In this document: positions 18,425-20,416 of the stretch, in pieces
Numbering within the stretch: position 1 is the first letter of the stretch
Layout of the letters: each line of letters starts with the position of its first letter
Assembly (NCBI GenBank): GCA_012960515.1
Contig: DUBD01000169.1
Location: forward strand, 10,730 to 69,338
Direction of reading: 5' to 3'
Length of the DNA: 58,609 nt
Source: Bacteroidota bacterium
GTDB taxonomy: Bacteria > Bacteroidota > Rhodothermia > Rhodothermales > Rubricoccaceae
Notes under the pieces: generated by a model
Databases searched by the model: none
Seen by the model: the letters and a program-made list of their open reading frames with translations, nothing else
Told to the model about the DNA's origin: nothing
Translations under genes and position numbers: made by a program

Positions 18425-19885
18425 ATGACCGCCAACCTCTCGTCGCTGTACAACGCGAGCTCGCTCTACGAGCAGCTCATCAACCAGGTGATGCAGATCG
18501 AGTCGCAGCCGCGGCTCAAGCTCAGCGCCGCCAAGAGCGACGAGACCATCTACAAGGCGGTCCTCAGCGACTTCGACAGCCGCGTGTCTGCGCTCCACTC
18601 CCGGCTGGAAGGCATGGCGGACCCCTTCCGCTCGCCGTTCGCCGCGATGACAGCCACGGCCGGGGACGGCTTCTCCGCCGAGGCCTCGGACGAGGCGGCC
18701 GCCGGAGAGCACCGCGTGCGCGTGCTCCGCCTCGCGGCAGCGGACACCCGCCTCTCGCGGCAGTACGCCTCGGCGGCCACGGACCTCTCGTCCAGCCTGG
18801 GCGCCAGCGCGCGGACGCTGACCGTCGGCATCGCGCAGCCGGACGGCTCCGTGGTGGACCTGGACGTGTCCTACGCCCCGCCCGAGGGCGCCACGAACGC
18901 CGACGTGCTCGCCGGCATCTCCGCCGCCATCAACAGCGCCGTGGAAGCGGCCGAGGACGACGGCACGCTGGAAGAGGGCACCGGCGCCCGCTCGACGCTT
19001 ATCCGCGAGTCCGGCACCCACGCCCGCCTCTCGCTCCGCAGCGACGCGACGGGCTACGGCAACAAGCTCGCGATCTCCGGAGACCCCGACCTGCTGGCGG
19101 CGCTCGAGATCGGCAACGAATCGGTGCGCGCTGGGACGGGCGGCGGCGCCGTCTACGATGTGGGCACGGATGCCGCGTCCTCCGCGCTCAGTGCGTCGTT
19201 CGAGTTGGACGGCCTCACGATCTACCGCGATTCGAACACCGTCAGCGACGCCCTGGACGGCGTCACCTTCACGCTGAAGGCGCCGGGAGAGGAGAGCCGC
19301 CTCACGGTCGCGCCCGACGCCAGCTCGATGCGCAAGGAGATCGACGCGTTCGTGAAGGACTACAACTCGCTCATCACCTTCCTCAACCAGAAGTCGGCCG
19401 TGGACCCGGACTCGGGCAACCGCGGGGCGTTCGCGGGCGATGCCGGCGTCAACGCCCTCCGCTTTGGTCTCCGGACCGACGCCACCGGCACGATGGAAGG
19501 CGCACTCAGCGGCCTCGCGGCACTCGGCATCGAGACCAAGCGCGACGGCACGCTCACGATCGCCGACGAGAGCGCGCTCACGGACGCGCTGGCCTCGTCT
19601 CCCGCTGCCGTCGCCGCCGTCTTCGATGGAGAAGACGGGATCGTCTCCCGGATGTCCACGCGGCTCGATAGCCTCCTCGGCTCGGACGGTGTGATCGCCT
19701 CGCGCCAGAAGGCGACCGAGCAACGGATCGACCGGATCGGCGACCAGATCGAGCGCTGGGACTCCCGGCTGGCCGCGCGTGAGTCCTCGCTCCGGGACCA
19801 GTTCAACATGCTGCAGGAGGTGCTGGCCCAGGTCGAGAGCCAGCAGAGCTCCCTCGCCTACTACTCGACGGGCGGCTACTACTAG
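18425..19885 (+). CDS. fliD: Flagellar filament cap protein FliD (HAP2)
   Basis: A 486-residue cap protein. The N-terminal FliD domain has LINQVMQIESQPRLKLSAAK, FDSRVSALHSRLEGMADPF and HRVRVLRLAAADTRLSRQYA. The central region carries DLDVSYAPPEGATNADVLAG and LDGVTFTLKAPGEESRLTVA. The C-terminal part has DAFVKDYNSLITFLNQKSAV and the coiled tail RIGDQIERWDSRLAARESSL with QFNMLQEVLAQVESQQSSL. Length and order are normal for FliD. Its TAG stop is the first triplet of a 164-bp palindromic element. Confidence 0.95.
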   Translation: MTANLSSLYNASSLYEQLINQVMQIESQPRLKLSAAKSDETIYKAVLSDFDSRVSALHSRLEGMADPFRSPFAAMTATAGDGFSAEASDEAAAGEHRVRVLRLAAADTRLSRQYASAATDLSSSLGASARTLTVGIAQPDGSVVDLDVSYAPPEGATNADVLAGISAAINSAVEAAEDDGTLEEGTGARSTLIRESGTHARLSLRSDATGYGNKLAISGDPDLLAALEIGNESVRAGTGGGAVYDVGTDAASSALSASFELDGLTIYRDSNTVSDALDGVTFTLKAPGEESRLTVAPDASSMRKEIDAFVKDYNSLITFLNQKSAVDPDSGNRGAFAGDAGVNALRFGLRTDATGTMEGALSGLAALGIETKRDGTLTIADESALTDALASSPAAVAAVFDGEDGIVSRMSTRLDSLLGSDGVIASRQKATEQRIDRIGDQIERWDSRLAARESSLRDQFNMLQEVLAQVESQQSSLAYYSTGGYY

Positions 19886-20046
19886 GCTCTGACTGGCGAA
19901 TCCAGATCGGCCTACACGCGGCCCCGGAGCCGTCCCGCCGCGTCGCGCTCCATCGCCGTAGCTCGCGCTACGTCTGCTTCACGCTCCTCGCGGGCCGCCC
20001 CCGGTCCTCGCGTTCGGCCTCGCTCCGAATCACCAGACAGAGCCTA
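19883..20046. repeat. 164-bp imperfect palindrome between fliD and the fliT-like gene
   Basis: The two ends are imperfect inverted repeats (19883-19901 against 20028-20046, 16 of 19 matching). Similarity between the arms continues inward, including GGCC, ACGCG, CCGG and CCCG blocks. The exact centre (19964/19965) is a perfect GTAGC-TCGC-GCTAC hairpin at 19958-19971. The symmetry about one point over the whole length argues for a single folded element: a MITE-like or REP-like insertion, or a large RNA hairpin. No open frame lies inside it. Confidence 0.75.
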
Positions 20047-20056
20047 GACTTCCACG

Positions 20057-20416
20057 ATGCCGACTCCGACCGACACCCTCCGCGCGATCCTCGCCTCCGG
20101 CCACGCAGCCGAAGAGGCCCTCGCCTCGGCGGATCTCCCCGGCGCGCTGGCGGCTCTTTCGGAGCGGCGTCAGCACCTCGACGCGCTCACGTCGGCAGCC
20201 CCCGCCACGGGGCACGAGGCCGCCGGCCTCCTCGCCGAGGTCCACCGTCAGAGCGACCGCCTCCGGACGGGCGCCGCCGAACGCCTCCGCTCCACCGAGG
20301 ACGCCCTCCGCCAGGCGGGCGCCGTCAGCCGCGCACACGGCCGGTACCAGACGGGCCCCGCCAGCGCACACGTGCTCGATACCGCCCCGCGCGGAGGAAT
20401 CTCGGGAGCTCGCTAA
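20057..20416 (+). CDS. fliT: FliT-like small flagellar protein
   Basis: A 119-residue, mostly helical protein after fliD, where the FliD chaperone FliT normally lies. The pattern ALASADLPGALAALSERRQH followed by LDAL resembles the FliT helix in which an R..LL..L motif sits between two helices. The rest is Ala/Arg-rich coiled-coil-like sequence and a Gly-rich tail. Sequence support is modest, so position carries most weight. Its stop codon TAA (20414-20416) is part of the -35 box of the flgM promoter. Confidence 0.55.
   Translation: MPTPTDTLRAILASGHAAEEALASADLPGALAALSERRQHLDALTSAAPATGHEAAGLLAEVHRQSDRLRTGAAERLRSTEDALRQAGAVSRAHGRYQTGPASAHVLDTAPRGGISGAR

Follow-up and report, generated by a model that had tools for sequence, protein, structure and literature searches.

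What is the long palindrome that follows fliD in this genome of the Rubricoccaceae, and how did it come to lie there? A preliminary description of the window (the whole stretch of 58,609 nucleotides analysed here) had placed three readings side by side: a MITE-like element, a REP-type repeat, or a large RNA structure that controls the late fliS-fliD-fliT transcript. We found that the 164-bp palindrome is real and spans 19883-20046, with its centre at 19964/19965 as originally placed. Between its outer 19-bp arms, 16 positions match; at that spacing, only one of 58,445 window positions attains this value. Over the whole length, 86 of the 164 positions are self-complementary, and several other window positions equal or exceed this value; the symmetry that had been called improbable by chance is improbable for the outer arms and not for the full interval. 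The central stem is perfect, as described, and measures 6 bp rather than 5 bp (CGTAGC at 19957-19962, GCTACG at 19967-19972). RNA folding, which had been proposed as a check, gave -72.4 kcal/mol compared with -60.6 +/- 3.7 kcal/mol for shuffled sequences (z -3.2), and 1 of 200 shuffles folded as well.

A similarity search of the genome that carries the window returned 39 matches, showing that the sequence is dispersed and not a single copy; full-length copies account for 16 of these and are 94-100% identical. The assembly consists of 298 contigs (3.88 Mb), several of which terminate within a copy, and we count about 30 copies in all. Aligned copies start with GGCTCTGTCYGG and finish with its complement, and TA stands immediately outside both ends in nearly all of them, which is the target-site duplication that had been suggested as a test. 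Beyond the TA, the left-hand base may be C, T or G and the right-hand base A or G, but the element's own G/C adjoining the TA is almost invariant, indicating that the duplication is the 2-bp TA and that the preferred target is CTAG (context C/T-TA-G/A). The outermost TA at each end of the palindrome is accordingly the duplication, and the element proper covers 160 bp. Internally deleted copies of 69, 80, 99 and 146 bp retain both ends. The same genome holds a second lineage with ends GGGCCTGTCTCG and a third with ends GGGTCCGTCATGTT (contig C217). Plasmid and phage collections gave no match. The features at the fliD locus are collected in the table.

Table. Features of the palindromic element and its neighbours (window positions)
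Feature	Position	Strand	Basis or remark
Palindromic MITE, lineage A, ends GGCTCTGTCYGG	19885..20044	.	160 bp; own-genome matches, ends and flanks, 24-copy alignment
Left TA of the target duplication; also the TA of the fliD TAG stop	19883..19884	.	TA flanks in nearly all copies
Right TA of the target duplication	20045..20046	.	Flanks of aligned copies
Left terminal inverted repeat GGCTCTGACTGGCGAATCC	19885..19903	+	One A where other copies show T
Right terminal inverted repeat, minus-strand reading GGCTCTGTCTGGTGATTC	20027..20044	-	One mismatch to the ends of the 917-bp IS, GGCTCTGTCTGGTGAATC
Conserved interior hairpin region, covariance model R1	19908..20020	-	Common to elements with unrelated ends; own copy 100 bits
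Central hairpin CGTAGC-TCGC-GCTACG	19957..19972	.	Site of the strongest compensatory changes
fliD	18425..19885	+	Pfam FliD_C 3e-51, FliD_N 2e-11; TAG stop abuts the element
Gene directly downstream of fliD, in the fliT position	20057..20416	+	No Pfam or NCBIfam match

Two local arrangements were seen among the copies. The copy L024 (C169:77291-77475) adjoins a smaller element-like stretch, GGCTCTGTCTCGCAAC...GGGATAGAGCC, and one TA is common to both. At L102 (G007:C5:16658), which holds a 127-bp element, the flanks would form a perfect 18-bp palindrome, GCGAGGCCTAGGCCTCGC, if joined at the TA.

At the fliD junction, the first two bases of the TAG stop codon (19883-19885) are the target TA, and the element supplies the G. 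The empty sites that had been sought in relatives exist: the gap between fliD and the next gene is 2 bp in genome G004 and 8 bp in genome G007, both without the element, whereas in the window it is 171 bp, nearly all of which is element. The C-terminus of FliD is intact, and the proteins of relatives end there too, give or take a few residues. A second insertion site, L016, is also empty in G004, with a gap reduced by roughly one element length. A single insertion into CTAG at the fliD stop would add 162 bp (the 160-bp element and one TA) to the space before the neighbouring gene, and the TAG stop would be retained because the first base of the element is G. The element may incidentally affect the transcript that carries fliD and the downstream gene. 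Terminal inverted repeats, a short target-site duplication, dispersed copies and empty sites are among the marks of a MITE, and these were found here.

Which transposase might move the element? A scan for its end sequence across 84,980 species genomes found two TA-flanked elements of 917 bp with nearly the same ends, L115 in a Gemmatimonadetes bacterium and L118 in a Planctomycetia bacterium. Both encode a transposase (DUF4096 and DDE) in two overlapping frames with an A-run at the frame change, and the fused L115 protein, with DUF4096 and DDE_Tnp_1 domains, matches the NCBIfam IS5 model NF033580 at 1e-83. The IS427 group of IS5 is described as having two ORFs and a 2-bp duplication (PMC3281130), and L115 and L118 fit the features given there: an IS5 transposase, two frames at an A-run, a 2-bp duplication and a length of about 0.85-0.9 kb. 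Within the order, family f13 contains IS5-type elements whose ends read GGCTCTGTCTGAGAATT. An intact partner transposase was not found in the element's own genome (fragmented, 298 contigs), where decayed IS5 remnants are present at C214 and C99, and at two TIR-like matches in G005 (L106, L108) there was no IS. Because the 917-bp IS5-family elements share nearly identical ends and TA flanks with the window element, which unlike IS427-group IS has no transposase of its own, an IS5/IS427-type transposase acting in trans is the likely mobiliser, as judged from ends in other phyla and families.

RUP and Correia/NEMIS are examples of bacterial MITEs that have TA termini and long stem-loops (review PMC2229807). 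They share with the window element a size of 100-200 bp, TA-terminal inverted repeats, high copy number and a long hairpin; they depend for movement on an IS transposase supplied in trans, and from sequence we infer the same here. RUP ends, however, tie that family to one IS (IS630-Spn1), whereas the present elements have an interior conserved across the order and ends that change from one IS5 or IS630 type to another.

This contrast emerged from weak BLAST matches elsewhere in the order, which are elements of nearly the same length (mostly 156-162 bp) with different ends. A covariance model, R1, built from the interior alone with the ends cut away (few effective sequences, rough E-values), detected such elements in 28 of the 245 class genomes, the richest having 23 copies. 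Among 296 genomes spread over the phylum, a search that doubles as a specificity control, matches appeared in two genomes outside the class. In all, the family counts about 130 members. The core averages 0.76 pairwise identity, compared with 0.51-0.54 for the ends. The end types of the superfamily include GGCTSTGTYTG, as well as GTGCTGCGTCAAG and GTGTCACGTCACG, with TA duplication; GAGACTGTTTGG and GAGTCTGTATG with TNA duplication; and further GAAGCTGTTCGG and AGTGCCTAACAAAACC. In genome G039 alone, the same interior is combined with at least five end types and different duplications. In G379, from another class of the phylum, two palindrome copies (L306 and L309) with ends TATACTTCACGCGG have an interior that resembles the core (48-53 bits; shuffle z 5.7 for L306), and they are possibly a distant branch of the family.

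The complete genome G015 links the superfamily to a second transposase type. A pattern search there revealed six pairs of the MITE end spaced 1216 bp apart. The four of these six elements that were read share their ends, and the one translated belongs to the IS630 family (HTH and DDE_3; NF033545), a superfamily other than IS5. The MITEs and this IS have a TA duplication in common, and the 15-base end TAGTGCTGCGTCAAG is identical between them at one IS end; only the terminal bases agree. This IS630 link was examined in one genome, G015. By R1, its IS630-type members score only 40-45 bits, yet they are supported by sequence shuffles: aligned without the covariance model, their interiors match those of IS5-type members at z 8.6-9.4 against dinucleotide shuffles, and the interior of a G045 member with IS630-like ends aligns at z 13.5. 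An autonomous IS sharing the MITE ends was thus found in G015 (IS630), while the element's own genome offered decayed IS5 fragments only, and similar ends were located in other phyla and in f13. For part of the end types, we infer end switching rather than slow divergence.

To see how the interior is maintained, we analysed covariation in a MAFFT alignment of 48 members held out from the model. Paired cells made up 84.7% compared with 63.6 +/- 0.8 in shuffles, and there were 302 double changes compared with 103; the signal was lost when the partner was slid by one base. In the central hairpin, the compensatory variants GTAGC/GCTAC, GATGC/GCATC, GAACC/GGTTC and GTATC/GATAC were observed. RNA evolution is expected to leave G-U cells clearly above A-C cells on one strand. 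At 22 well-paired positions, G-U and A-C cells numbered 32 and 26 (p 0.51), so the compensation looks to be DNA-level and not that of a functional RNA, and points to upkeep of the hairpin in DNA, for example by template switching from arm to arm. PMC8794818 describes template switching as able to create and maintain hairpins. The interior also contains conserved unpaired loops, GAAGCAG on one side and CGATGCAG on the other. These loops stay asymmetric and conserved though template switching alone would erase them, which makes selection likely.

We also examined the position of 26 own-genome copies relative to genes predicted with a codon-usage gene caller. A TAG stop built from the target TA and the element's first G is abutted by 24 of the 26; most of these genes are backed by Pfam, and many domains end near the stop. 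Twenty copies lie between convergent genes, six between tandem genes and none between divergent genes, a convergent excess over the 27% expected for 3' ends (p 2e-7). In a 615-kb own-genome background, half of the non-coding CTAG sites are at stops, and among the sites in convergent spacers this share is 70-78%; relative to CTAG in convergent spacers, stop abutment gave p 0.04-0.13. Targeting of TAG stop codons, considered on the strength of the 24 copies, faded against this background and in other genomes, and the gene-end location is largely explained by the occurrence of CTAG. In seven other genomes the convergent bias was not seen (13 of 50 intergenic copies, p 0.17), and selection against harmful insertions also predicts a convergent excess. 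A literature search on insertions at stop codons and on MITEs in Salinibacter and Rhodothermus returned nothing relevant.

A separate feature of this genome is the octamer GCTGGCGG, which occurs 114 times in the window on both strands and 1333 times in 615 kb of own-genome loci (2.17 per kb, 10 times the second-order Markov expectation) with little or no strand bias. Each of its one-base variants is at least 4 times rarer. Its density is 0.1-0.5 per kb in loci of G001, G004, G015, G039 and G046, and 1.6 per kb in G007 loci. A single base separates the octamer from E. coli Chi, and it is similar to iterated octamers of the HIP1 type.

Other explanations have to be weighed against these data. 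A REP/BIME-type repeat moved by a RAYT (Y1) transposase would, like the window element, be an extragenic imperfect palindrome present in many copies, and frequent location at gene 3' ends in this genome agrees with it. REP units, however, are 20-40 nt long, associate with a RAYT gene and make no target-site duplication, whereas the present unit is 160 bp with IS-type inverted ends and a duplication, and matches elements with DDE transposases; we regard the REP-type reading of the preliminary description as having next to no probability. It is also conceivable that no ends were switched, that one end co-evolved slowly with one transposase lineage and that the IS630-like ends are chance resemblances. 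The IS5-type ends do all fit a loose pattern and could form a gradual series, and the partner transposases with a family-model match, that of G015 excepted, all belong to NF033580. The variety of ends and duplications on one interior in G039, together with the 15 bases shared in G015 with a six-copy element of a different transposase superfamily, makes such gradual change unlikely.

The interior might instead be a functional structured RNA (a small RNA, regulatory leader or processing site) carried by the MITEs, with selection acting on the transcript. The strong covariation of the held-out members speaks for this, as do the conserved unpaired motifs and a consensus fold of -66.8 kcal/mol on the minus strand compared with -49.6 kcal/mol on the plus strand. 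The balance of G-U and A-C cells, by contrast, is unlike typical RNA evolution, tandem neighbours with and against the strand number 18:9, no Rfam 15 covariance model matched at E<=1, and a conserved gene context is absent, which leaves this explanation improbable. As to the proposed RNA structure dedicated to controlling the fliD transcript, about 25 unrelated genes precede the same element and the compensatory changes lack a G-U preference, both of which speak against it. That the element is mainly a transcription terminator or 3'-end stabiliser, kept for its benefit and acting here between fliD and the downstream gene, would agree with the stop-abutting and convergent positions. But those positions follow mostly from CTAG availability, are equally predicted by selection against harmful insertions and show no convergent bias in the seven other genomes, and a U tract is absent; we judge a terminator role still more improbable than a functional RNA. 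The MITE-like reading was borne out by the dispersed copies, the inverted repeats, the TA duplication, the absence from orthologous fliD junctions and the IS5-family-like ends. The best explanation, and in our judgement a probable one, is a non-autonomous palindromic MITE with an IS5/IS427-type mobiliser, belonging to an order-wide superfamily with a conserved interior and exchanged ends.

MITEs are normally defined by their ends, which the transposase reads, and their interiors drift freely. A conserved interior with changing ends is the reverse of this behaviour, and in the open-licence literature we found no description of such a family. We propose a mechanism in which template switching during replication, between the arms of the long imperfect hairpin, would transfer an alteration of either end to its counterpart. 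Both ends would thus change together, making recognition by another transposase possible. The asymmetric interior loops would resist homogenisation as a DNA-level site needed for spread, probably under selection. Tentatively, and with rather less assurance than for the MITE itself, the family may be an ancient lineage of palindromic mini-transposons that owes its survival to changes of its ends, in which a conserved hairpin cassette hopped between at least two transposase superfamilies (IS5 and IS630) and the palindrome served as a copying device keeping the ends identical. If so, the pairing of a conserved interior with replaceable ends would account for the persistence of non-autonomous elements after their parent transposons are gone. 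The palindromic form seen in many MITEs would gain a possible function, namely arm-to-arm correction that keeps the ends matched. It would also serve as a warning that compensatory base changes, which are commonly accepted as proof of structured RNA, can arise at the level of DNA.
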